From positions 1-48,973 of IMG/VR virus record IMGVR_UViG_3300044626_001725: a stretch of 48,973 nt of DNA, one strand, 5' to 3'. Shown piece by piece: positions 15,970 to 35,392 of this stretch. This stretch comes from a virus. Position 1 is the first letter of the stretch. Each line of letters starts with the position of its first letter. The position numbers and the translations under genes are program-made. The notes below the pieces were generated by a model. The model searched no databases. It saw nothing but the letters and a program-made list of their open reading frames with translations, and was not told the DNA's origin.

Positions 15970-18900
15970 CTAGGTTATGGAATTAATTACCAACGACAAT
16001 GGTACACGTTTAAGGTAATTTTGAACTCTCACCCCCCGATTCACCTCCCGCATCACGCCCTCAATCTGCTGATCGATGCGCTTCACGCGTTCCTGCCAGC
16101 CGGGATCGGCGCGCAATTGCTCTTCCCTCCTCAGTCTCCGTAGTTTGCTCACTGCAGCTTCAGCCTGATTGCCAAGTCCGATGTGATCAACAAGCGGTTC
16201 TTGTTGTCTAAAGCTTTTAGCGTCTTCACCAGCTTTCATGCGTCCTTTGTATTCGTTCTCGATCTGATTCAAGCGCTTGATGTTCTTGTAAAAGAGCTCG
16301 GACTCAGCCGCTACGCCCTGTGTGCTGCCATAGAGCCGCCCGAGTAACGGTATCTTGTGCGCCGGTAACTCATCGCCTGTGAAGGGTGCCGAGATCGTTT
16401 GAGCTAACTTTCCAATCTCGCGCCCTACCCCGCCTGTGAGTTGACCGATCACATAATCGATTTGATCAGGCGTTGGACTCCATGCACCGGGCTGATAAGC
16501 CGTACCGCCTGAGATTCGGTTGAGTGCTTGGGCGATTATTTTGGACCAAGGCGTGGCTGAGTCTTTCACAAGAGCGGTGCCTGGCTGTGGGTTAAGCGGG
16601 TTATGGTTCTCACGGTATATCGGCCGACCCGTCCAGTCCTGGTTTTGAGCGAGAGCGACTGCTGGATCAGCAACGGTCGGCGTGACAAGTTGCGAGAAGC
16701 TTTGGGTGCCACCAAGCGGATTAAAAGCATCAAGCAATACTTGGAGCAGGTTGCCCAATTGCTTTGCCGGTGTGTTGTCTTTGCCACCAGCCATCATTTC
16801 AACCGAGAGCCTTCCGATATTGGGTAAGAAGTGAAAGCCTAAGGGCAAGGGAAGCGATAAGTACTCGGTTGTAGAGATTGGAATGATGAGATTCTTTTCT
16901 TTGACAAATTCTGGAATCTTCTCCCAGGCATCATCACCATCATCACCATCATCACCACCGCCCATAATCGCCATGGCAAGCAAGGTGTTCACAGCACCCA
17001 GCATCACCCCACCCAACATGATCTTGCGACCAAGCGGGCCTTTGAGTGTTTGCGCCATACGCGCTGTGCCTTGGATTGAGGCGTTAAAGAAGGCATACAG
17101 CGCACCGATCTCGCGCGATTGCCTGCCCTTGCGATTAAAGTTAACCGTCAGGTTCTTAGCAAGGCTTGCAGCACGCTCTTGGCTTAGTCCCGAGTTCAAT
17201 GCCACATCAAAAGCTGAAAGACGCACGGCGTTTTCCATGGCTTCGTTATAGTCTGAGAGCCAATCAAGTACTGCATGAGCAGCTTTGCTTGCCGCCCCTC
17301 GATCAAGCGCTGCGAGTTCACGAGCGAGAGCATCGGCGCGTTCTTTGGCATCGGCAAAAAGATCGCGATAGCCTGTGGTGCCACCTGCCGCTTGCAGTTG
17401 CTGCCAACGATTAGCCCAGTTAGTAGCGCTCTGATCTTGCGACGCGACTGAGACACCACCACGCTCGGTGCGATAAATCGCTTTGAGTGCAGGCCAAACG
17501 TTTGCTGCGACTTCTTTTTCCTTACCTGCAATCGCTGTCGTGCTGAGATTTAAGAGACCCGATTGCAGATCACGTGCAAAGTTAATAATTCCAAAGATCG
17601 GGTTGTATTGGGTGTTAATGGATGCAAACCAACGTGTGCCTTTTGCGATGAGGCTAATGGCTGCATGTAAATCACCCACATCTAAGTTTTTAATTGACTG
17701 GGCAACTCTTAAAGCTTCAGGGTTTCGCTCATTAAACGTGATCGCTGCATCTTTGCCGCCAATGCGCAGCATCACCACATAGGGCAAGTTTCTATAGTTT
17801 GGATCTACTATCGTACGAGCAGTGTTCGTCATCGGATCAAGCACACGCGCAGTCGGCGGCTTATCCACGGTCCAAAGTGAGCTATCTGGGTTTTGTGCAG
17901 CCATTAAGTAGAGCTTTTTAGTCACCCGGTCTTTTTCACCGCGGGTGAGTGCCGTTTCGCGCTGCTGCGCGATATGACCCAAGATGTTGGTGACTTGCTC
18001 TTTACTACCCACACGTTGTCTTGCCGCAGCACCGTTCACACTAAAGCCAAGTCCTACAGGGTGTGCGGTGCTTGTGGGGTGTGCCTCATCGCGATGTAAT
18101 GGCACGTAGTAGTCATAGGCTTGGCGCCAGGCTACAAGCGTTTCAGCATCCATGAGGCCATAGGCATCTAAAAGCGTCAGTGTCTTCTCATTGATGGCAT
18201 CAACACGTGCTGCAGCTGCCTCAAAGCTTGGTAGGTTCGAATTGTCAATGCCAGCAATGACTTGCGCCGCTTCAGTATCTGACATCCCAGAAAGCGCTAA
18301 GCGCTCATCTTCGGTACCTTTAAAGGCTTGTGCCAGCGACCAGCGTTGTTGGCGCTCATAGGCAAGCGTTAATGACTCTTCTATCGCTTGGGTGGTCGCC
18401 CCTGAGCTTTTAGCTGCTTGCAAGGCACGCTCAAGCGAAGCAACGTTGGCTGCGGCTTCTTTTCGATAAGCATCAAGCTCGGCTTCTGAAGGATTGCGCT
18501 TAGCCATGGCAGCATTAGCTTCGGGTGCATGCCGAGCGTGTAAGTAGCGCTCAAAGTCTTTCAAAGCAATACCTGCGTCATGCAAGCTTTGAAGCAATGG
18601 TTTTAGCTCATGGCTTAAAAACTGCTGCGTTCTGAAAGCGACCCGCTTGTGAAAGAGCTCTTCGCCCAAGTAGGCATCATTAAGATCAGTGATCACACCA
18701 CCCAACGCATGAATTCGATCTCGGATGCGTTTTAGATCGATGTACTTGTCTTGAAACTCATAAAGCAGTGCATCAATCACTTGGGGGCTTATCAGATTGG
18801 AAAGGCGCGTCTTAAGCGCTTGCCAGCGATTGGGCGAATTGGGTGTTGGTGGGTTTGGTCTTGGTGACTTTAGGCCTGGTGTGTTCGGTTGATTCGGCTC

Positions 18901-21900
18901 AGGTGCTGGTGAGTTCTTTTCTGGCCCCTTGCTCGATTCATCGCCACCTGAGCGATCTAAATCGTTGAGCGTGGTGTTCGGGAAAGCGATCTCACTCGTT
19001 GAAAAGTCCATCAGCATGCGAGACGATAAAAAGTACGCACCCTCCCCGTTTGTTTTCGATGGATCAAGAATCTGCTTGAGTGCTTTTAAAAGCGCTGCAT
19101 TCGACTCAAGTCCTAAGATGCCTTTGACCTTCTCTATCATCTCAGAAAGCCACACAGCGATCTGTTTAAAGATACGGTCTTTGGCATCAAAGCGTCGTGC
19201 AAGAAGCGCTGAGGCGTTCACGGCCCAGTACTCAGAAGGGTTTACAAGCTGATAGTGATCAGCATAGTTAAGCGGCCCATCAAGAATAGCGGCTTGTAAT
19301 TGCGCATGTGCACTGCGATCACCGGCAAGTGCCAGAGGGACAAGCGAGAGCGCCTGGCGCTCTTCGCTACCAGCCACTTCAAGTGCTCGGGTGTAGGCTT
19401 GAGCCCAAGCTTTTCTAATGCCCTCTTGCATCGCTTTGGGCATCATGCGCTCGGCGTGATGTAAGAGCTCATGCACGGCAGTCTCTCTTGCATCAGCGCC
19501 CTTAAAGAGCCGCATGAGTTCTGCTGTCGGGTTGTATTGGCCTGCCGTGCCGTCCGATTTTGGCGTTTGAATGCTGATCGCAAGATTCGTTGCAAGCGCC
19601 GGGTTTTGATCAAGCGCCCAAAAGGCAAAAGCCACCGTTTCGGGTTCTAGATCACCTTGGCGTTGGGCGCGAATCAATCGCTCACGTAATTGCTGCTCAC
19701 CGCGCTGGCGAGGCTTAACCGCGCGCTTATTTGCCTTGGTCTGCACGACCTCATCAAGCTCACCTGCAAGCCGTCTGATCTTGACTTCAAACTCCTCGGG
19801 GCTCAGTGCGCCATCATCAAGCTTGGCAATCAGACCTTGAAGACGTCTTGCCGCTTGCACTTTGGGGGTGGGCTTTTCTTCATACCCATCAAAGAGATGA
19901 CGCATGCGCCGCTCAAGTGCTTTTCTCGATAAGTCATTGACCGTGCCTTGATCGCGTGGCATGTGGCCTTGATTCACAGCACTGGTTCTTGATGCAACAT
20001 CAATCACATCAAGCAAGCGAATATCGAGTCTTGCAAGTGCGCTGGCAAGATTCGACTGCCCATCAAAGTCAATCGATGCATTGGGATTGGCAATGATGGC
20101 CGCACCCGCGCCTGCCTCTGATGCCGCATTGACCAAGCGATCAAAGCGCTGATCGATACGAAGCGAGTTTGCCTCTTCAGGTTTGATCGGTACAAAGGCT
20201 GACACACGCTGCTGGCTGTCGGTAAAGAGAATGCCTGGGGTATCAAGTGGTGCGATCGAGCGCATGATCGACATGGCACTATCAGGACTTGTAATCGCAG
20301 GCATCAGTGCGTTTTGCCTAAGAATGGTGCGCTCAACAATCGGCACATTCACGGGTGTCTTACCTGTGATCAGTGCGCCTTCAAGCGGATTGCCTTTGTC
20401 ATCAACCGCTTCAAAGCGGCCTTGATCGTTAGTGCCAGGTTCTACACCGATGGCAGCCACCCCTTGCCATTGCACGCTCGATGCATCAAAGGTTGAGCTG
20501 ATTGCGCGACTGAGCTGTTGATCGGCTCGTGATAGCGTTGAGATTCCACTGGGGTGATTGTGTACACCCCAAGCCTTTGCAGCGCCTTCAATGCGCAAGG
20601 CCTCAGCAAGTAGCGTGTTGGGATAAACGGATGCTTGATTAAAGGCCCCTTTAAAGCTTCCGATGACCGCAAGTGGCTTTCCGCCTTGATCAGTAATAAG
20701 CACATCAAAGTGCTCTACCGCATACTGGCCAAGCGCTGCGAGTGCAGAGGCTGCATCGACCCAGTTTTGAATGCGATCAACAGGTAAGCTTCTTGTACCG
20801 ACTTGTACAAGTTGAGAGCTGTAGTGATAAATGCCAGGCAGGTAGGGGTCAGGGCGAAGACTAAGGCGGGGTTCAATGCTCGAGCGTGGTTCACCACTTT
20901 TCTCTGCGCTCGCTTGATTCGATCCAGACTTTGGATCGTTATCGCTTCGTTTTGATGATCGCTTTACCCTGCCCTTAACTGCCACGGGCAAATCTTGCTG
21001 TCCACTGAGCGAATCAGGAAAGAGATCCGCAGTAACGCTTTCTGGCGACAGATCAAAACCTGCTAAGGCTTGGTCAGGCCCATCGGGTTGGCGCACCTTA
21101 TAGACCGATTCTTCTTCTGATACACCTGGCTGATCTTCTGTCGGTAGCGCAATGCTCTGAAGATTATCAAGCGCACTGGGTGCATCACCAAAAATGCCAG
21201 GCTCAGGCTTGGTTTGCATCGCTTGATCCACAAAGGCTTTAAGCTTTGCAGCGGCTTTGTCTTTGGCAACAGGTCTTGTTAGAAATTCACCTTGATAAAA
21301 GACTTTAACGAAGGCCTGCACCGACTCACTGGGGGGTTGGCCGGTTTGTAGATCAGGCTGGCGAAGTAATTCATAAAGCGATCGGCGCTCTTGCCTGGCA
21401 CGCTTAATCAGTCCCACCGCATCCATTAAGTCCTTGGTGACATCTTGCTGCGGATCTATCGCCCCTATTCTTGCCGAATCGCGCATGTTGGCCCAGTGCC
21501 CTGCTACTTGCTTTAGGGCTTCACCAATCCCTTTGATATCGGTCTCCATCGCATCGAAAAGCTCAGCCACCAAATCACTATCATCAAAGGCGGCTTGGGC
21601 AAGTGCTGCTTGAATACGTGTTCGGCCAGCTGGCGATAAGTGGCCTTGCGCTGTCATGAGGGTTGCAATGTCTTGACCAGAACCCGCAAGTTTGCCCACA
21701 AAGGCGCGCACAAAGTCTCGGTTATCAGCACTTGATACATCACCCTCTTCATAAGCCGATAAGACACCTGAGTCCATCAGCTTGGCATCTTGCCTTGCAA
21801 GTTCAACAGGCGACATCCCCAATCCCTGGCCTTGGCTTTTTCGTGCCATGTTGGCGGTATTGCTCTGTTCGCTATAAACACGGACAAGCACAGGGTTGGG

Positions 21901-23526
21901 TGTAAGTGCAATGGCTGCGGGGTCAATCCCGTGATTGGCAGCATCTGAGACAAGTTCTGCTTGATAGATTGCGGCTTTGCCTTGCTCATAGGCACCACGC
22001 AAACCAGCTACACGGCCATTGTTAAGCGCTTTAAGAGTGCCTGGCTGCTCGGACGAAAAGCCCGCATTCACCGAGCCATCAAGATTATGTGAGGCTTGCA
22101 CGGCATCGGCTGAGACCACGGCATACTGAAAAGGCACACGCTGGCCATCGGCCATCACTGCCACATCGGATTTGCCAAAATGTTGCTCGGGAATCGCACT
22201 TAAATCGTCACCTTGAGCAAAGACCATCGGTGCACCAGAATCAGGTGTACGGCTTGGTCCTAAGCGCATGTAATCGGGTGCTCTTGCGATTGATTGCATT
22301 TGAGCCACGGATGCAAGCCGCGATCGATCTCGATTTTGTAGATTCGGATCGGCCGTGTCGGTTTGGTTAGTTTGACGCTGGTCCGCTTGACCACCATCAG
22401 TCCTCGCATCTAGAGCATCGCCTTCAATGGGCTGAGTCGGTAGAACGCTCTGATCGTTGGTACGTGTATTCTGATCGATCGAATCTTGTCGACTAAGACT
22501 TGCTGAACGGTTCTGCGTGTCGACACTCGGTTGCGGTGCATTCACCGAAGCAGAAGTTGCTTGACCGTCTACCGACTTCTCATTTGCTCGCCTTACCGAC
22601 CACAGCGCTTGCGGCACACTTTGCGATAAACCTGCAGCGGATTCAAGCACGGCATCGTAGATATCAGGCTTACCCGTTGCGGCAAGCTCACCTAAGTATT
22701 CGCCTGTTCCCTCGCCTACGGTTTCAAGCGCAACACCAGTGCCGAGCTGAGCCGCACGCGTTCCAATACCTGGCGCCGATCGACCTGCAGCAGCGCTTGC
22801 TCGATTTAAAGTCTTTGCGAGTTTGCCGCCAAGCCCTAGCGTGGCTGCATCGATACCTGTAATCACACCGCCTTTGATGGCACCTTCTCGAAGTGCGTCG
22901 GTACGCTCGGCATCTGTAAACCCATCAGCGGCTTTATCGATCGCTTTGGAGCCTGTCTCAATCGCTGTGTTGCCAAGAAACATACCTCCGAGAAAGCCAG
23001 CCGTACCAAGTACGGGGACTGCAATAGGTGCAAATGGGCCCGTTAGTGCGCCAAGTGCTGCACCGCCTTTAGCGCCTGCAATCCCAGTACCTAGCGAGAC
23101 GGCAGTATTGGGTAGCTGACTTGCTACAAACTGTGCACTGCCAGATTTGTTATTCAGCATGGCAGCGCCCACATTACGTATTGCTGAGAGCACGCCTGGA
23201 TCCGTATCAAGCGCTTTGCGTCTGGCAATCTCATCCATCAGAGCGCGCTGCGCCGAAGGCTGCTCAGTGACGGCCGCTCGCTCAACGCCCGCCGTTTGCT
23301 CAACAGCGGCACGATCATCTAAGGCGGTATCAAGCGATGCTGAAAGTGTGCGGCCCGTGCTCTTAGCACCTTGCCAGAGAGCAGTGCCCAGATCGCTTAC
23401 TTCATCCGTAAAGCTGCGAGTCTTTGGCGCAATCGAAATGCCCGCTTCAGCGAAAAGATCTCGACCGCCTTGCGCATCGCGGCGAGAAGGTGTGATTCCG
23501 GCTTCTTGAAAGAGATCGCGAGGCAT
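15970..23526 (-). CDS. Giant polyvalent protein (ParB-like, MPN, zincin, LPD38)
   Basis: A 2,518-residue phage polyvalent protein, probably packaged and injected with the DNA to blunt host defences. Order of parts (approximate residues): two RDLF-EAGI repeats (3-10, 22-29); Gly/Ala-rich hydrophobic segments (110-320) suited to membrane passage; a disordered linker; a ddrB-like ParB-type domain (455-740, VMADGQRVPFQYAVVSAD). Then an MPN/RadC-like domain (910-1110) with complete HNHPSG-S-D, a zinc peptidase with HELLH (about 1353), a long helical region, and an LPD38-type domain (about 1850-2350). A membrane-like segment lies near 2170 with a GGGDDGDDGDD turn. The ATG start is normal. It follows two internal virion protein genes, as ejected proteins do. 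Confidence 0.85.
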   Translation of the reverse strand: MPRDLFQEAGITPSRRDAQGGRDLFAEAGISIAPKTRSFTDEVSDLGTALWQGAKSTGRTLSASLDTALDDRAAVEQTAGVERAAVTEQPSAQRALMDEIARRKALDTDPGVLSAIRNVGAAMLNNKSGSAQFVASQLPNTAVSLGTGIAGAKGGAALGALTGPFAPIAVPVLGTAGFLGGMFLGNTAIETGSKAIDKAADGFTDAERTDALREGAIKGGVITGIDAATLGLGGKLAKTLNRASAAAGRSAPGIGTRAAQLGTGVALETVGEGTGEYLGELAATGKPDIYDAVLESAAGLSQSVPQALWSVRRANEKSVDGQATSASVNAPQPSVDTQNRSASLSRQDSIDQNTRTNDQSVLPTQPIEGDALDARTDGGQADQRQTNQTDTADPNLQNRDRSRLASVAQMQSIARAPDYMRLGPSRTPDSGAPMVFAQGDDLSAIPEQHFGKSDVAVMADGQRVPFQYAVVSADAVQASHNLDGSVNAGFSSEQPGTLKALNNGRVAGLRGAYEQGKAAIYQAELVSDAANHGIDPAAIALTPNPVLVRVYSEQSNTANMARKSQGQGLGMSPVELARQDAKLMDSGVLSAYEEGDVSSADNRDFVRAFVGKLAGSGQDIATLMTAQGHLSPAGRTRIQAALAQAAFDDSDLVAELFDAMETDIKGIGEALKQVAGHWANMRDSARIGAIDPQQDVTKDLMDAVGLIKRARQERRSLYELLRQPDLQTGQPPSESVQAFVKVFYQGEFLTRPVAKDKAAAKLKAFVDQAMQTKPEPGIFGDAPSALDNLQSIALPTEDQPGVSEEESVYKVRQPDGPDQALAGFDLSPESVTADLFPDSLSGQQDLPVAVKGRVKRSSKRSDNDPKSGSNQASAEKSGEPRSSIEPRLSLRPDPYLPGIYHYSSQLVQVGTRSLPVDRIQNWVDAASALAALGQYAVEHFDVLITDQGGKPLAVIGSFKGAFNQASVYPNTLLAEALRIEGAAKAWGVHNHPSGISTLSRADQQLSRAISSTFDASSVQWQGVAAIGVEPGTNDQGRFEAVDDKGNPLEGALITGKTPVNVPIVERTILRQNALMPAITSPDSAMSIMRSIAPLDTPGILFTDSQQRVSAFVPIKPEEANSLRIDQRFDRLVNAASEAGAGAAIIANPNASIDFDGQSNLASALARLDIRLLDVIDVASRTSAVNQGHMPRDQGTVNDLSRKALERRMRHLFDGYEEKPTPKVQAARRLQGLIAKLDDGALSPEEFEVKIRRLAGELDEVVQTKANKRAVKPRQRGEQQLRERLIRAQRQGDLEPETVAFAFWALDQNPALATNLAISIQTPKSDGTAGQYNPTAELMRLFKGADARETAVHELLHHAERMMPKAMQEGIRKAWAQAYTRALEVAGSEERQALSLVPLALAGDRSAHAQLQAAILDGPLNYADHYQLVNPSEYWAVNASALLARRFDAKDRIFKQIAVWLSEMIEKVKGILGLESNAALLKALKQILDPSKTNGEGAYFLSSRMLMDFSTSEIAFPNTTLNDLDRSGGDESSKGPEKNSPAPEPNQPNTPGLKSPRPNPPTPNSPNRWQALKTRLSNLISPQVIDALLYEFQDKYIDLKRIRDRIHALGGVITDLNDAYLGEELFHKRVAFRTQQFLSHELKPLLQSLHDAGIALKDFERYLHARHAPEANAAMAKRNPSEAELDAYRKEAAANVASLERALQAAKSSGATTQAIEESLTLAYERQQRWSLAQAFKGTEDERLALSGMSDTEAAQVIAGIDNSNLPSFEAAAARVDAINEKTLTLLDAYGLMDAETLVAWRQAYDYYVPLHRDEAHPTSTAHPVGLGFSVNGAAARQRVGSKEQVTNILGHIAQQRETALTRGEKDRVTKKLYLMAAQNPDSSLWTVDKPPTARVLDPMTNTARTIVDPNYRNLPYVVMLRIGGKDAAITFNERNPEALRVAQSIKNLDVGDLHAAISLIAKGTRWFASINTQYNPIFGIINFARDLQSGLLNLSTTAIAGKEKEVAANVWPALKAIYRTERGGVSVASQDQSATNWANRWQQLQAAGGTTGYRDLFADAKERADALARELAALDRGAASKAAHAVLDWLSDYNEAMENAVRLSAFDVALNSGLSQERAASLAKNLTVNFNRKGRQSREIGALYAFFNASIQGTARMAQTLKGPLGRKIMLGGVMLGAVNTLLAMAIMGGGDDGDDGDDAWEKIPEFVKEKNLIIPISTTEYLSLPLPLGFHFLPNIGRLSVEMMAGGKDNTPAKQLGNLLQVLLDAFNPLGGTQSFSQLVTPTVADPAVALAQNQDWTGRPIYRENHNPLNPQPGTALVKDSATPWSKIIAQALNRISGGTAYQPGAWSPTPDQIDYVIGQLTGGVGREIGKLAQTISAPFTGDELPAHKIPLLGRLYGSTQGVAAESELFYKNIKRLNQIENEYKGRMKAGEDAKSFRQQEPLVDHIGLGNQAEAAVSKLRRLRREEQLRADPGWQERVKRIDQQIEGVMREVNRGVRVQNYLKRVPLSLVINSIT

Positions 23527-25520: not shown

Positions 25521-26339
25521 CTATCGTCTCGGCGGCATGAGGCTTCCCAGTGCCCAGCTCGTGCCAACGCCTGCTGCCGCACCAAGGATCGTATTTAATG
25601 GATTACTCGATGCAGCGATTTGGTCCTGAGCACTTTTGAATTGCGCTTGAGCGTTAAACATCCCCGTGGCATTCGCACCCATGCGCCCAGCAACATCCGA
25701 GGCCATGCCATAGCCTGCATTCATCCCTGAAGCACCCACATTGGCAATGTTCACCCCATTGGCTGCAAAGCCTGCACCAGCACCCGTTGCAGCCATCCCC
25801 ATGGCGGGGTAGCCCGCAAGTGCATTGGTTGCTCGATCGGTCAGCGCGAAGCCCTCTTGTCTGGCACTTCGCCTTGCCATGTTCTTTGAACCCGCTAAAA
25901 GTGCAGCAGCACCAAGCGCTGCCCGTGGATCATTGGCCTGGTTGGTAAAGGGCGATATGCCACGCCTTGCCTGCATGCGCGCGGTTTGATCTTGTGCAAG
26001 CGAAATCGCCGACTGCGCATCGGCGCCTGCTTCAGCTGCAAACTGATCCGTGCGCTGCTTGGCATTAAAGCCTGTTGCATCGGAGACCAATTGATCCTGA
26101 GCGTTCGATAACAGATTGCGCCTTGTGAGCATCCAGCTGCGATCAGCTTGAGAATCCGTGACCGCCTGCCTTGCCGTATCAAGAGCAAACTGGGTTTGCT
26201 CTTTTTGTAGCGGTAGCATCTCATTGGCGTTCGACATGATTTGCTTAATCACATCGTCTTGGACACCCAATGAACGTATCTGCGCTTCGATCAAACGCGG
26301 ATCGGGCGGAGGCGCTGACGATGAGCTCTTAGATCCCAT
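25521..26339 (-). CDS. Internal virion/ejection protein
   Basis: 272 residues. It starts with a low-complexity stretch (GSKSSSSAPPPDPRLIEAQ), then a helical segment that resembles the N-terminal region of podovirus ejection proteins. A Gly/Ala/Met/Asn-rich C-terminal half follows (AAGVGTSWALGSLM at the end) that could insert in membranes. Start ATG 26339 follows AGGTGAGG at a good distance and overlaps the GNAT gene stop by 11 bases. The following gene begins 11 bases after its stop. Role inferred: part of the DNA ejection apparatus. Confidence 0.72.
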   Translation of the reverse strand: MGSKSSSSAPPPDPRLIEAQIRSLGVQDDVIKQIMSNANEMLPLQKEQTQFALDTARQAVTDSQADRSWMLTRRNLLSNAQDQLVSDATGFNAKQRTDQFAAEAGADAQSAISLAQDQTARMQARRGISPFTNQANDPRAALGAAALLAGSKNMARRSARQEGFALTDRATNALAGYPAMGMAATGAGAGFAANGVNIANVGASGMNAGYGMASDVAGRMGANATGMFNAQAQFKSAQDQIAASSNPLNTILGAAAGVGTSWALGSLMPPRR

Positions 26340-26766
26340 CACTTACCTCACCTGCAATAAATCGGCAGTCACGCTTCCAAAGTACATACAGCACAACATC
26401 ACCGCCATCGGCTGCAGCACCGGTAAGTCTTGCCTCTTCGCGAAAGCCCAAATGTTCATTAAAGCGTCGTGCCTCGAGATTCGATGCATCCACATAGCCC
26501 GAAACCCGTTCGACACCACAAATCAAAAAGGCATAGGCAAAGACAGCAAGTAGGTAATCTCGGTGGAGCCAACGCCTGCCAGGTCTTGCAGCCACATGCA
26601 TCCAAAGGTTCTTACCGTTATAGCCTTCAAAGAGCACACCTGCCACGAGCTCGCCATCGCGTGTAAGTCCTAGGGCAATCATATCTTCAGCAAGCTTTAA
26701 GCCTGGCAGATAGCTGCGCATAAAGGCAGCAACGCGTGTGAGCGAAAAGTCAAAAGCATGGGTCAT
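26329..26766 (-). CDS. GNAT-fold acetyltransferase
   Basis: 145 residues with a GNAT-like pattern. A strand with ALGLTRDGELVAGVLFEG and a WMHVAARPGRRWLHRD segment correspond to the acetyl-CoA loop region, and FNEHLGFREEARLTG is the typical GNAT end. The canonical Q/RxxGxG/A loop is degenerate (RPGRRWLHR), so activity is uncertain. Similar small GNAT proteins are encoded just before ejection protein genes in other short-tailed phages. The gene overlaps the next by 11 bases, so the two are translationally coupled. A role in modifying a virion or host protein is inferred. Confidence 0.75.
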   Translation of the reverse strand: MTHAFDFSLTRVAAFMRSYLPGLKLAEDMIALGLTRDGELVAGVLFEGYNGKNLWMHVAARPGRRWLHRDYLLAVFAYAFLICGVERVSGYVDASNLEARRFNEHLGFREEARLTGAAADGGDVVLYVLWKRDCRFIAGEVSDGI

Positions 26767-30652: not shown

Positions 30653-32374
30653 CTAGACCTGAGCGAGTTCTTCCACGCTTGAAGCAAGTGCGACGGACTG
30701 CACGGGCGCTGTCCCTTCAAGTTCTACTTGCCAGTGCTGGGCCATAAAGCCTGCAGGTAGTCGTTGTGCCTCTGGGCCAGGTACTGAGACGGTGTACCGA
30801 AGCGACGTTGGGGTAGGTGCTGAAAGACGGCTGCCCAGTCGTTGGATCAAGGCATTGACGGTTGCCGAGGGTAAATCAAGTGCCTCGACTTTCACAATTA
30901 CGGGATAAGCATCGGCTTGTACTTCCAGGCATGAAAAGTTAATGGGCTGCGGCGCTCGAAACACTTTGGAGCGAAAGCGATAAGTCAGTGGCGTTTGGCT
31001 GCCATCAAAGCGTTGAACGTATACGCCTGAAAGCCCATAGAGTTGATCTTGAATCGGATCGACATAAAGGGCGCTAAAAGCTAGATCAAAAAAGTACACG
31101 CCCGTACTTGATGCTGGATCGATTAAAAAGCCTCGACGACCCGAGCCGTCATCAAAGCTGCCCAGATAGAGCCCCTCGTAGTAAGCACCCATGATGCTTG
31201 CTGGCTTTAATGCCTGCCAATCAGCGCGGGTTAAAAGACCTGCGGTTAATAGCCTTGCACCCCCGCTCCCAAGCCAACATAGACCATCTTCTGAAGCCCA
31301 GGCAACCCCTGAGCCCATACTGACGACCGAGCGTGGCGCCACACAGGCTTGCGGCAGATCAATGAGTTGTTGATCAAGCGAATCAGGACTTGACCCAGAG
31401 ACCACAAGGGGTCTGCCATTGGTAAGCACCACAAGTTGCTGACCAAAAACACCCAGTGCTACAGGCTTTGAATCAGGCGGAATCACATCGTAGTTTTCTG
31501 GCCATGCATAAGCGACATAGGGTTCACAAAAGCGAATGCGATTGCCCGATATCCCTGCAAGCATGCCGTTCCAGAGTGCGCTTAAGTGCGTTAAGTTTTC
31601 AGGTGGCATCGCCCAAGCAACCGTGGGGCAGACTTCGCCAAGATCGCGCAAATCATCGGTTGTACTTGGCGTGCCGATTGCAATCTCACGCAAAAAGAAA
31701 AAGTCCGTTGCACCACTTGATCCGGTTGCCGTGCGATAAATCCTAATACGATTAATGGCATAGTTACCCGCTGGCGGTAGTGCAAAGCCAGAAAGGGTTG
31801 CTTGGGCATCACTGGGTCGGTTGTTCTCCGTACTAACGGGACTTGGTGCGCTTTCCCAACCCCAATCGTTCACATAGGTATAAACGTAATAGCTTGAAGT
31901 AAGCTCCCCTGTTCCACCTGCTAGCGTTGAAACGCTAAGGGCCGCAGTGGGCGCTGGTAGTCCAAGTGGTCTTGATACGGTGGGATAGTTTGAAGTTGGT
32001 GAGGTTGATGAGCTTGATGAGGTTGTTGATGTCGCCGTAGCTAGGCCCATCACATTATCCGTCACTTTCGGTGTCCCATCACCACTATAGTAAGTGCGCT
32101 CCGTGGTATCGCCTGTATCAAAGCCTCGCACGGCATGAACAACACTCGCCCAAGAGAGCCAATAGGTGCTGTCCGATGCAACATCGCGTCCCATGCGATA
32201 CATGCTTTGGCGCCCAATCGGAACGTTCGCTACCGTTAGTGGTGCGTTCCAACTTCTTAGATCACCACGGCCTGGACGTTGATTGCGGCTGAGTGTGCCT
32301 TGATGCTCGGCAAGTAAACTTGGATGAGGCGCTTGTACTTCGCCACTAAAGCCTGCAATCCGTATGAGTGCCAT
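30653..32374 (-). CDS. Tail nozzle/stabilisation-like structural protein
   Basis: 573 residues, mostly beta strands with repeated aromatic-Gly motifs (VYTYVNDWGWESAPSP, GLCWLGSGGARLL, GVYFFDLAFSALYVD), suggesting a beta-propeller like that of podoviral tail nozzle or gp10-type proteins. A Ser/Thr linker lies at about 112-127. Translation start overlaps the stop of the halogenase gene in TAATG, which couples the two. It precedes the large fibre gene, as expected for a distal tail piece that carries fibres. The propeller assignment is by eye. Confidence 0.7.
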   Translation of the reverse strand: MALIRIAGFSGEVQAPHPSLLAEHQGTLSRNQRPGRGDLRSWNAPLTVANVPIGRQSMYRMGRDVASDSTYWLSWASVVHAVRGFDTGDTTERTYYSGDGTPKVTDNVMGLATATSTTSSSSSTSPTSNYPTVSRPLGLPAPTAALSVSTLAGGTGELTSSYYVYTYVNDWGWESAPSPVSTENNRPSDAQATLSGFALPPAGNYAINRIRIYRTATGSSGATDFFFLREIAIGTPSTTDDLRDLGEVCPTVAWAMPPENLTHLSALWNGMLAGISGNRIRFCEPYVAYAWPENYDVIPPDSKPVALGVFGQQLVVLTNGRPLVVSGSSPDSLDQQLIDLPQACVAPRSVVSMGSGVAWASEDGLCWLGSGGARLLTAGLLTRADWQALKPASIMGAYYEGLYLGSFDDGSGRRGFLIDPASSTGVYFFDLAFSALYVDPIQDQLYGLSGVYVQRFDGSQTPLTYRFRSKVFRAPQPINFSCLEVQADAYPVIVKVEALDLPSATVNALIQRLGSRLSAPTPTSLRYTVSVPGPEAQRLPAGFMAQHWQVELEGTAPVQSVALASSVEELAQV

Positions 32375-33846
32375 TAGGGTGTGAGCGCTTGATGCCGTGC
32401 GGCAGGCTTTATCCCATAGCCATAAAACATCATGGCGTAGGACAAGTTACAAAACATCCCAAACTCACCAAAGACTTGTTTGATATCGGCAAGCTCAAAT
32501 CGCTTGCCTTTGGGCGCTTGGCTATAGCGCTCGATCCACGCCTTTTGGTGCTCGGTAAGGCCCTTGGCCTGGTAGTCGCGCCAAAAGGACGAATCAGAAC
32601 GTTTGCTGAGCGTATAGTGCATCTCCACAAACTCAAGCACGCTTTGGGCAAGTTGTCGTTGGGAGCGATTGAGGCGATCGCGCAAAAGCTCAATTGAGAC
32701 ATGCTGGTTTTGCAAGGCCTCGCGCAAACAAAGCGCCGTTGAGTTGGCCATGGCAATCGCAGTGCTCTCAAGTGGCTCACAAAAAAAGCTGCTCATCCCC
32801 ACCCCGATCACATTCTTCACCCATTGCTGCTTTCGGTAGCCTGTGGCAAATCGCAAGCGGCGAAACGAAAGCGATGCGGGCTCATAGCCGTAGTGTTTTT
32901 GCAGATGCAAGGCAAACTCGCGAGCAGCCGCATCATCACTTTGATGCGAGGATGAAAAGATATAACCCGTACCGATCCTCGATTGGAGCGGGATGTTAAA
33001 GACCCAACCACTAGAGAGCGCATGACAATAGGTGGTGTTGCGAAGCTGGGTGCTGCGATCCCGATAAGGCAATTGAATCAGCCACGCCCCATCAACAAAA
33101 AGCCTTTCGTGGGCACTGACCCATGGCTCATCGAGCGCATGTAAGAGCATGGCGCTGGATCCCGTGCAATCGACATAAAGATCAGCGGTAAGGCTTGCCC
33201 CTGATCTGAGTATGAGGCTTTCAATAGAACCATCCGCTCCTTGCGTGACAGCGCCGATCGCATCATCGAGCACTTGAACCTGTGGTCTTTGAAGCGTCAT
33301 CGCTTTTAAGCTTTTCGCGTAGGCAAGCGCATTCATGTGAAAGGCTGCCTCTTTGCTGCATGCCGCCTGACTAAACCAGCTTGCGTTATCGATAAAGCCG
33401 CGCATCCTGCGCCTGCCCGCTGAGGTGTGCGCAAACATGAAGCTTGCCTGCGCTTGCTCGGTATCGCTTGGCAGCCCCCTCAGTAAGCGATCAGTGAGCC
33501 AGCCTCGATCTAGCCCATAGGCATCAAAAAAGGGGTGAACCCAAAGCTTATCTTTGGCCTCAAACTCGGCAAACTCAATGGTCAGTTTGATCGTTCCATC
33601 CACGCTATCGAGCCAATCGGCGCTCTTAAACACCTCAAAGCCCATCTTTTGGTGCGCAAGGTGAATATGCGGCAGCGTGCTTTCGCCCACCCCAATCGTT
33701 GGGATATCCGAAGGTTCAAGCACCGTGATGCGAAGACCAGGCAGTGAGGAGAGGATCGCAGCCGTAGACCACCCCGCCGTACCACCGCCTGCGATGACAA
33801 GATGACTGATGGGCTTTGCTGACCCGTCCAACGATTGAGGTGTCAT
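32374..33846 (-). CDS. Flavin-dependent tryptophan-halogenase family enzyme
   Basis: A 490-residue member of the flavin-dependent halogenase family (PF04820 type). The FAD site GGGTAG is at 20-25 (GxGxxG), followed by IPTIGVGES (48-56). K87 in TIKLTIEF matches the catalytic lysine, and the EPLESTAIA stretch carries the matching glutamate. The diagnostic WxWxIP reads WVFNIP (about 281-286), with Phe for the second Trp, followed by RIGTGYIFSS as in known halogenases. Such enzymes use FADH2, oxygen and halide to halogenate aromatic rings. No flavin reductase is seen, so the host must supply FADH2. It lies between tail genes and is coupled (TAATG) to the nozzle gene. The target is unknown; the Trp/Tyr-rich tail protein two genes upstream is a candidate. 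Confidence 0.9.
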   Translation of the reverse strand: MTPQSLDGSAKPISHLVIAGGGTAGWSTAAILSSLPGLRITVLEPSDIPTIGVGESTLPHIHLAHQKMGFEVFKSADWLDSVDGTIKLTIEFAEFEAKDKLWVHPFFDAYGLDRGWLTDRLLRGLPSDTEQAQASFMFAHTSAGRRRMRGFIDNASWFSQAACSKEAAFHMNALAYAKSLKAMTLQRPQVQVLDDAIGAVTQGADGSIESLILRSGASLTADLYVDCTGSSAMLLHALDEPWVSAHERLFVDGAWLIQLPYRDRSTQLRNTTYCHALSSGWVFNIPLQSRIGTGYIFSSSHQSDDAAAREFALHLQKHYGYEPASLSFRRLRFATGYRKQQWVKNVIGVGMSSFFCEPLESTAIAMANSTALCLREALQNQHVSIELLRDRLNRSQRQLAQSVLEFVEMHYTLSKRSDSSFWRDYQAKGLTEHQKAWIERYSQAPKGKRFELADIKQVFGEFGMFCNLSYAMMFYGYGIKPAARHQALTP

Positions 33847-33866
33847 GGGCTTAAAGGGCGATCCAC

Positions 33867-34253
33867 TTAAAGCGCGTGAATCGCAGCACGTGCGCTTGCA
33901 CGAAGCTCCAAGATATCAGCCGGTATGGCAACACCGGTTTCTGCATGCCTCACCACATACCAATCGGTGTCGTTCAAAAAGCGGCGATTGCGCTGATTCT
34001 CAGCCACCTTCAGGCTAAGCGTCTCATCGGGTTCAACACCTGCTAAAAAGGCTGCAACCTCGTCGCGCTGCGCGTCTGTCATGGCAATCGACTGGCCATC
34101 GATCAGAATCTCTTGCACGGCTTGGATGTATTTGATGGCGTGATAGGCAAAGGAAAACTGGGGCCTTTCAATGGCAAGCACATGTCTGCCGTCGGCTTTA
34201 AGGATTGAGATGTTGCCGCTTGGCGGAATGATCATTTGATCGGTGACGGGCAT
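33867..34253 (-). CDS. Tail fibre assembly-like protein
   Basis: 128 residues. The C-terminal segment NRRFLNDTDWYVVRHAETG, then ADILELRASARAAI, resembles the R-xxL-xxTDW-xx-R-xx-LR pattern of tail assembly chaperones, though weaker than in the protein at 27517-28002. The N-terminus is beta-rich. It lies between the aromatic-rich tail protein and the halogenase gene, 20 bases from each neighbour, so all are cotranscribed. It could chaperone the short fibre proteins upstream. A second chaperone in the operon suggests two separate fibre systems. Confidence 0.6.
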   Translation of the reverse strand: MPVTDQMIIPPSGNISILKADGRHVLAIERPQFSFAYHAIKYIQAVQEILIDGQSIAMTDAQRDEVAAFLAGVEPDETLSLKVAENQRNRRFLNDTDWYVVRHAETGVAIPADILELRASARAAIHAL

Positions 34254-34274
34254 GGCGTCCTCTTTGAAAAGATG

Positions 34275-34742
34275 CTAGTAGTAATAAGCCCAGTAGGAGT
34301 TATCGTTGGTGACGGTGACCCAGTTGTCCTGCCAGTAAGGGCCTGGGTCGACGTACCGGTCATAGCCTGTGTGCTGATAGGCATCAAAGAGCCAGTAGTG
34401 ATAACCATCGCCATTGGTATAGGTGCCAATCTGCACCCAGTTATAGCCCCCGTGACCGCTATAAAACGACTCAGGACTGCCATCGGGCCACATGGGTAAA
34501 TTGGGATTCGCATTACCACCCACATTCCAGCGACCCGAACCCACGAAGTACTGACCGGTGTAGACCCATTCCCAGTACGGATCAGGATCAACCCAATAGC
34601 CATAGTTAACCTGGGTCTGATACGTCGAAGGCACCCACACACGCTCCCACCAACGGGTGCCCGCGCGCTGCAGCTTATTGATGTCTGCGCCGTTAAAGCG
34701 AATCAGCGTAACGCCCGCAAAGTTAATCGACTGCGTAGGCAT
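34275..34742 (-). CDS. Trp/Tyr-rich tail protein
   Basis: 155 residues with 13 Trp and 19 Tyr, about a fifth of the chain, plus many Gly, Asn and Asp. Aromatic motifs recur: WERVW, NYGYW, PYWEWVY, GYHYW, GPYWQDNW and NSYWAYYY at the very end. No signal peptide or membrane helix. Such composition suits a beta-structured fibre tip or carbohydrate-binding surface. It follows the collagen-like fibre gene and precedes the chaperone-like and halogenase genes, so it is probably a virion protein. It is not a family I can name. Being two genes from a tryptophan-halogenase relative makes it a possible substrate; that is speculation to test. Confidence 0.72.
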   Translation of the reverse strand: MPTQSINFAGVTLIRFNGADINKLQRAGTRWWERVWVPSTYQTQVNYGYWVDPDPYWEWVYTGQYFVGSGRWNVGGNANPNLPMWPDGSPESFYSGHGGYNWVQIGTYTNGDGYHYWLFDAYQHTGYDRYVDPGPYWQDNWVTVTNDNSYWAYYY

Positions 34743-34768: not shown

Positions 34769-35392
34769 CTAGGTGTTGATCGTGAGTACGCCACCGGAGA
34801 CCGAAAAGGTGGCACCGACCGGACCCTGTGGGCCTTGAGCGCCTTGGGGCCCCTGAGGTCCTGCAACACCTTGTGGGCCTTGAATCCCTTGAGGGCCCTG
34901 TGCGCCATTAGTGCCGTTTGCACCATTCGCACCTGCCACACCTTGTGGCCCACGGATCTGGGCAACAACCGCAGCAGGAATTTGCTGAGAGCCATTAAGC
35001 CATGCAGCCCCTGCGTTATTCACCGCTGTGACTTGTGTGGTGCCTGCGCTATTAACCTCACCGACCTTCGTTGAGCCTGCGCTATTTACGGCAGTAACTT
35101 GGGTGGTGCCAGCTGTATTGACTGCGTTCACTTTTGCAGTGCCTGCGTCATTCACCGCAGTGACTTGAGTAGTGCCTGCTGTATTAACCGCATTCACTTT
35201 GGCAGTCCCCGCATCATTGACCGCAGTCACTTGCGCAGATCCCGCGGCATTCACGGCCGACACATTGGCATTACCAATGGAGGACTCTGACGCTTTGGCA
35301 AGCAGCAAGAGCTCCGTGGCAGTCGTTGCCCCGGAGACGCTATTTAACCGCGCCTGAAGCGTATTGCTATAGGTTGTAAAGTCAACGGGCAT
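34769..35392 (-). CDS. Collagen-like tail fibre protein
   Basis: 207 residues in three parts. A short head is followed by about eight 11-residue repeats of the type AVNxAGTxxVx (residues 46-130) and then 16 perfect Gly-X-Y triplets (148-195), ending in a short beta segment ([10 protein letters not shown]). The Gly-X-Y block should form a collagen-like trimer and the 11-residue repeats a helical or beta stalk. Such proteins are common in phage side fibres. It is next to another short fibre-type gene (35401-35751) and the aromatic-rich protein gene. Confidence 0.85.
34808..34951 (-). repeat. Gly-X-Y (collagen-like) coding repeat
   Basis: Sixteen consecutive Gly-X-Y codon triplets, mostly GPQ, GAN, GVA and GAQ, inside the fibre gene. 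The DNA is a 9-base tandem repeat, likely to vary in length by slippage. Confidence 0.85.
35003..35257 (-). repeat. 33-bp tandem repeats in fibre gene
   Basis: About eight 33-base units coding [11 protein letters not shown]- and [11 protein letters not shown]-type repeats that alternate in pairs, so a 66-base higher-order unit is visible. Recombination between units could change the fibre length. Confidence 0.82.

Follow-up and report, generated by a model that had tools for sequence, protein, structure and literature searches.

A halogenase gene lies behind a Trp/Tyr-rich tail gene

The IMG/VR virus record IMGVR_UViG_3300044626_001725, analysed over its whole length of 48,973 b (the window), is podovirus-like, its major capsid protein sharing at most 50% identity with its counterparts in 60-kb phages, Erwinia phage Pavtok among them. 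Its late genes include one for a flavin-dependent halogenase, and an original prediction made from the DNA letters proposed that this enzyme may halogenate a tail protein encoded two genes upstream. The genes concerned are transcribed from the minus strand in the order collagen-like fibre, tip, chap, halogenase and virion protein; tip denotes a 155-amino-acid (aa) Trp/Tyr-rich protein (34275–34742), the proposed substrate, chap a 128-aa protein (33867–34253) that resembles tail fibre assembly (Tfa) proteins, and the succession tip > chap > halogenase is called the cassette. The halogenase gene (32374–33846; 490 aa) belongs to the flavin-dependent (tryptophan) halogenase family PF04820. Its stop codon overlaps, in the string TAATG, the start codon of an internal virion protein gene (30653–32374; PHROG 511, E = 2.4e-135) and, as read from this overlap, it is translationally coupled to that gene, in agreement with the prediction. 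The predicted composition of tip was likewise borne out, the count being exactly 13 Trp and 19 Tyr.

The protein encoded upstream of tip (34769–35392) matches the collagen family PF01391 (E = 5.6e-9) and PHROG tail fibre families. Tip itself has no match in Pfam or PHROG, nor any in two bacterial genomes, the latter a result of little weight. Chap matches PHROG 27919 (E = 2e-14) and, over its C-terminal third only, PHROG 4912 'tail fiber assembly' (E = 7.6e-5); it has no Pfam match, and an hhalign comparison with the Phage_tail_APC protein of the window was not significant. The chap family is wide, with about 180 relatives among viral contigs.

The cassette recurs on different phage backbones

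Neither the window halogenase nor tip, used as a single query against viral contigs, gave matches, because the relatives are too divergent; alignments were therefore needed as queries. The contigs and loci compared with the window carry labels from L002 to L313. Fourteen contigs, near-copies included and representing about six lineages, encode an enzyme at least 38% identical to that of the window, and in all 14 the order tip > chap > halogenase is found, on different phage backbones and across protein identities of 30–45%. Chap is the conserved third member, lying directly upstream of the halogenase gene in every cassette. This survey had been set beforehand as a test capable of refuting the proposed link, and the trio was present throughout (14/14). 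Among the next 69 viral halogenase loci, with identities of 37% and below, chap adjoins the halogenase in none. Searching with the C-terminal codons of tip alone recovered L082 and L086, and with the tip alignment alone L182, and each of these again carries the trio; L202/L203 were recovered by the chap search, and L279, L280 and L281–L284 by a wider halogenase search.

The capsid (head) gene has relatives in 80 viral loci, of which only L002 and L003 carry a halogenase or a tip, and both carry both; in 31 other relatives in which the slot could be mapped, different tail genes stand there and neither halogenase nor tip is present. Most flanking virion genes of L002/L003 are 71–100% identical to those of the window (60–77% for the collagen-like fibre protein), whereas tip, chap and halogenase are only 36–46% identical, with order and position unchanged. 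L082 and L086 share 97–100% DNA identity over chap and halogenase, as against roughly 65–70% over tip and fibre, with the breakpoint between tip and chap, so that, judging from this contrast, the enzyme pair of chap and halogenase is retained while tip changes. The ratio of nonsynonymous to synonymous substitution rates (dN/dS) is about 0.15–0.18 for both the halogenase and tip when L003 is compared with L082/L086, and by this estimate both genes are therefore maintained under purifying selection. The occurrence of the same trio in several distantly related phage contigs suggests, short of proof, that the phage halogenates its own tail tip.

The enzyme retains the core catalytic residues of halogenases

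The prediction of a tryptophan-halogenase-family enzyme with a flavin adenine dinucleotide (FAD) site, K87 and a catalytic Glu held in full, all core catalytic residues being present. The PF04820 match is full-length (residues 16–487; E = 5.5e-92, 309 bits against a cut-off of 21), and that to PHROG 2928 'tryptophan halogenase' has E = 4e-95. We aligned 15 sequences, the window enzyme and 14 others, and checked the cassette relatives in addition: the FAD-binding motif GxGxxG (GGGTAGW in the window) is common to them, and the catalytic Lys K87 (codon 33586–33588) and the catalytic Glu E357 (codon 32776–32778, within FFCEPLEST) are invariant. The motif WxWxIP reads WVFNIP in the window and WVFHIP in L002/L003, Phe replacing the second Trp, and WVWNIP, WVWTVP or WVWNVP in other cassette members.

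An AlphaFold model of the halogenase has a predicted local distance difference test score (pLDDT) of 85, and its best PDB match by Foldseek is 2pyx, from the gammaproteobacterial PF04820 enzymes (E = 1.6e-39, 26% identity, template modelling (TM) score 0.82), with AbeH, PrnA, Thal and VirX1 at a TM score of about 0.8. PrnA, RebH, Thal and AbeH share the fold, the FAD site and the catalytic Lys and Glu with the window enzyme but are only 24–29% identical to it in the structural matches. Two of the RebH indole-sandwich residues, H109 and F111, are present as H104 and F106; the third, W466, aligns to C467 in the window and to His in L002/L003. Cys or His at this position may mean that the pocket is not built for free Trp, the alignment being gapped there. 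No free-Trp pathway was found near the window halogenase.

In an unrooted tree the cassette enzymes form one group (support 100), outside both a VirX1-type viral group (support 100) and the bacterial enzymes. A sister relationship of the cassette and VirX1 clades seemed supported in one tree but lost resolution in the unrooted tree with more viral sequences, which does not fix the branching order of these three groups, and we do not retain it. Bacterial PF04820 genes form a separate group; none was found near the cassette clade, the best identity being 33%.

Tip is rich in aromatic residues, and tips with a halogenase usually end in an aromatic cluster

Trp and Tyr make up 20.6% of tip, compared with a mean of 3.8% (standard deviation 2.6%, 99th percentile 10.7%) in 1,186 distinct open reading frames (ORFs), each 100 aa or longer, in the window and in related viral loci. 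All four of the highest values in this set belong to tips of halogenase cassettes, and the aromatic richness is therefore far beyond chance. Tip carries a WERVW motif (34635–34649) that is invariant in six cassette tips, and at its C-terminus the sequence SYWAYYY (34278–34298), identical in L002, L003, L082 and L086. The endings of other tips with a halogenase are SYWTYFY (L281), SVWNYF (L279), DVWDWFG (L280) and SHYVYFY (L182). We compared the last 8 residues of 9 tips with a halogenase with those of 46 tips that precede chap homologues and have no halogenase, and found a mean of 4.2 Trp, Tyr or Phe residues as against 1.2 (p = 1.5e-5, uncorrected for kinship). Trp occurs in this stretch in 7/9 and 8/46 tips, respectively, and in 4/6 and 8/46 (p = 0.02) once the former are collapsed to lineages. 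A C-terminal Trp/aromatic cluster is a more specific common feature than the aromatic-rich target first proposed, with L202 as the exception, and it is perhaps the modification site, a lead rather than proof. As a separate observation, the tip gene of L002 has ACG (L002:14247–14255) where its relatives have ATG or GTG, which may reflect a disrupted or atypical start codon or a mistake in the assembly.

Comparison with known halogenases and tail genes

Cyanophages commonly encode halogenases, and one of these, VirX1 of cyanophage Syn10 (PDB 6qgm), has a solved structure. The original prediction had cited a cyanophage halogenase simply as being active; the parallel proved stronger, in that the VirX1 gene too lies behind tail adhesins, but it joins enzymes of separate clades. 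VirX1 is a viral PF04820 protein of similar fold, and its gene and those of its kin (in S-RIM44, P-TIM40, P-RSM6, S-SZBM1, S-CREM1, S-WAM1, Sf-FP1 and Sf-FR1) are directly preceded by at least two tail adhesins together with a small protein of PHROG 1787. Unlike in the window, these adhesins are glycine-rich rather than Trp/Tyr-rich, and VirX1 is about 32% identical to the window enzyme. We considered homology of chap with the PHROG 1787 protein and rejected it, there being no profile similarity; since the two are not detectably related, the likeness is one of arrangement only. Some viral contigs repeat the order adhesin, small protein, halogenase, and genes for 2-oxoglutarate (2OG) oxygenases are frequently found no more than a few genes away. 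Two or three halogenase genes in tandem also occur in cyanophages and viral contigs (L175:5926–9031, L183:4001–7112, L186:3935–7031, L313 and L308), several of them directly behind adhesins.

Pairs of tail-fibre and Tfa chaperone genes resemble the succession of tip and chap; the window differs in adding a halogenase gene directly behind. By function rather than sequence, a comparison can be drawn with SrpI and MibH, halogenases of ribosomally synthesized and post-translationally modified peptides, because the window enzyme, like them, would have as its substrate a ribosomally made protein from a neighbouring gene; the candidate substrate here is a virion tail protein and not a precursor peptide. 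SrpI brominates a C-terminal Trp (PMC12615548), and the chemistry proposed below therefore has precedent.

Halogenation of the tail tip as the favoured explanation

We regard modification of the tail tip by the halogenase, maybe at the C-terminal cluster, as the best explanation of these observations, with a probability of roughly 0.6. The collagen-like protein would form the fibre shaft, the Trp/Tyr-rich protein its variable tip (an adhesin), and chap would aid the folding or mounting of tip. The halogenase would be a tail-tip maturation enzyme supplied with reduced flavin by a host reductase. Peptide-acting flavin halogenases exist, and in this family the FAD enzyme makes hypohalous acid (HOX) and hands it to the catalytic Lys, which here would be K87. 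Exposed indole or phenol rings of tip, most likely those of SYWAYYY, would then be halogenated, tuning how tip engages the host surface through hydrophobic or aromatic contacts. We infer that tip is the substrate, and likewise which residue is modified, with which halide, and how this affects binding.

Several observations weigh against tip halogenation. Homologous tip and chap genes occur with no halogenase in L201, whose tip retains WER of the WERVW motif and is alike at its N-terminus and final AYYY, and in L204–L210, whose tips have 11–15% Trp plus Tyr; PF04820 was absent from these records, most of which are fragments. The predicted link between enzyme and tail protein is supported by co-occurrence, but aromatic richness is not a trait bound to the halogenase. 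Because tip and chap occur without the halogenase, the enzyme looks like a later addition to an older adhesin unit. A doubling of Trp content in the presence of the halogenase, apparent with six tips (p = 0.007), was abandoned when L279–L281 were added and near-copies collapsed (p = 0.054), and the C-terminal Trp contrast is weak when lineages are compared with the four homologous halogenase-free tips alone (4/6 versus 0/4, p = 0.07). The tip of L202 (L202:3414–3983; 189 aa, 20 Cys, 9 Trp) lacks the aromatic ending despite the presence of chap and halogenase. The structure model of tip is of low confidence (pLDDT 56), so poor that exposure of the C-terminus cannot be read from it and a fold search was ruled out. 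No flavin reductase turned up among the window proteins scanned, and the halogenase genes of P-SSM2, S-MbCM6, Syn1 and S-B64 lie outside tail clusters.

The enzyme might instead be an auxiliary metabolic gene product with a small molecule or a compound of the host surface as its halogenation substrate, its place in the tail operon serving late expression only. The literature we searched treats viral halogenases as metabolic or antibiotic-related genes, several cyanophage halogenases do lie in metabolic regions, antibiotic-based protection has been suggested for cyanophages (PMC2984593), and VirX1 accepts many small aromatics (PMC8407142). We nevertheless consider this unlikely, given that the cassette holds no other biosynthetic gene, that the pairing with tip and chap is invariant across unrelated backbones, and that in L002/L003 the halogenase has diverged along with tip and chap, unlike the conserved flanking genes. 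Less probable again is that linkage alone explains the trio, a selfish or neutral block swapped in and out of a tail slot. The slot is indeed hypervariable in relatives, and small neighbouring genes transfer jointly; yet the purifying selection and the maintenance of gene order over 30–45% identity speak against a mere passenger, as does recombination between tip and chap, which shows the linkage to be breakable although every close halogenase found follows a tip. We place this explanation last among the alternatives.

The flavoprotein could also alter tip by a different chemistry, such as hydroxylation, oxidation or cross-linking of Trp or Tyr. In L204 two 2OG-Fe(II) oxygenase genes (L204:4287–5426; PF13640, E = 2e-11, and PF13759, E = 3e-17) lie directly behind tip and chap, in the position of the halogenase. 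Clusters of halogenase and 2OG oxygenase genes also follow adhesins in cyanophages, and selection may therefore favour oxidative tailoring in general. Phe in place of the second WxWxIP Trp, as in the window and L002/L003, would also fit, but L182, L202 and L279–L281 keep WVW, and neither the catalytic Lys nor the catalytic Glu varies, which leaves a non-halogenating activity rather improbable. A broader version of tip halogenation, which we hold to be less likely than not, is that the slot behind the adhesin holds oxidative tip-modifying enzymes (halogenases or 2OG-Fe(II) oxygenases) or none, that many phages, VirX1 cyanophages included, might thereby edit their receptor-binding tips, and that viral halogenases could have their native function in this editing.

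We found no report in the open-access literature of a native substrate of viral halogenases, nor one that names a tail protein as such a substrate, the VirX1 paper lying outside that scope. The conserved trio points to one protein as a candidate substrate and to a C-terminal motif as a candidate site, which makes the substrate question testable. If tip is the substrate, halogenation would join the means by which phages diversify host recognition, and these phages would be a source of halogenases that act on proteins.

Other features of the window and related contigs

A small hydrophobic, probably membrane protein of 95–100 aa is encoded next to the halogenase gene in L182 (8246–8533), L093 (5705–6007), L091 (5699–5998) and L092. 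It is 50–53% identical, occurs in two unrelated phage groups, the halogenases of L091–L093 being only about 25% identical to that of the window, and has no match in Pfam, PHROG or phage records. Elsewhere in the late operon of the window lies an Acyl-CoA N-acyltransferase-like gene (26329–26766, minus strand; PHROG 4470) that is present in 18 related loci, and the minus strand also encodes a 2,518-aa polyvalent protein with ddrB-ParB, RadC-like and LPD38 domains (15970–23526). The plus strand carries a candidate anti-phage defence array within this phage record (5444–15263), whose members, a DUF499 ATPase, a DUF3780 protein, a DUF1156 methyltransferase and a PLD-helicase, each strongly match PADLOC models PDLC02189–02193.

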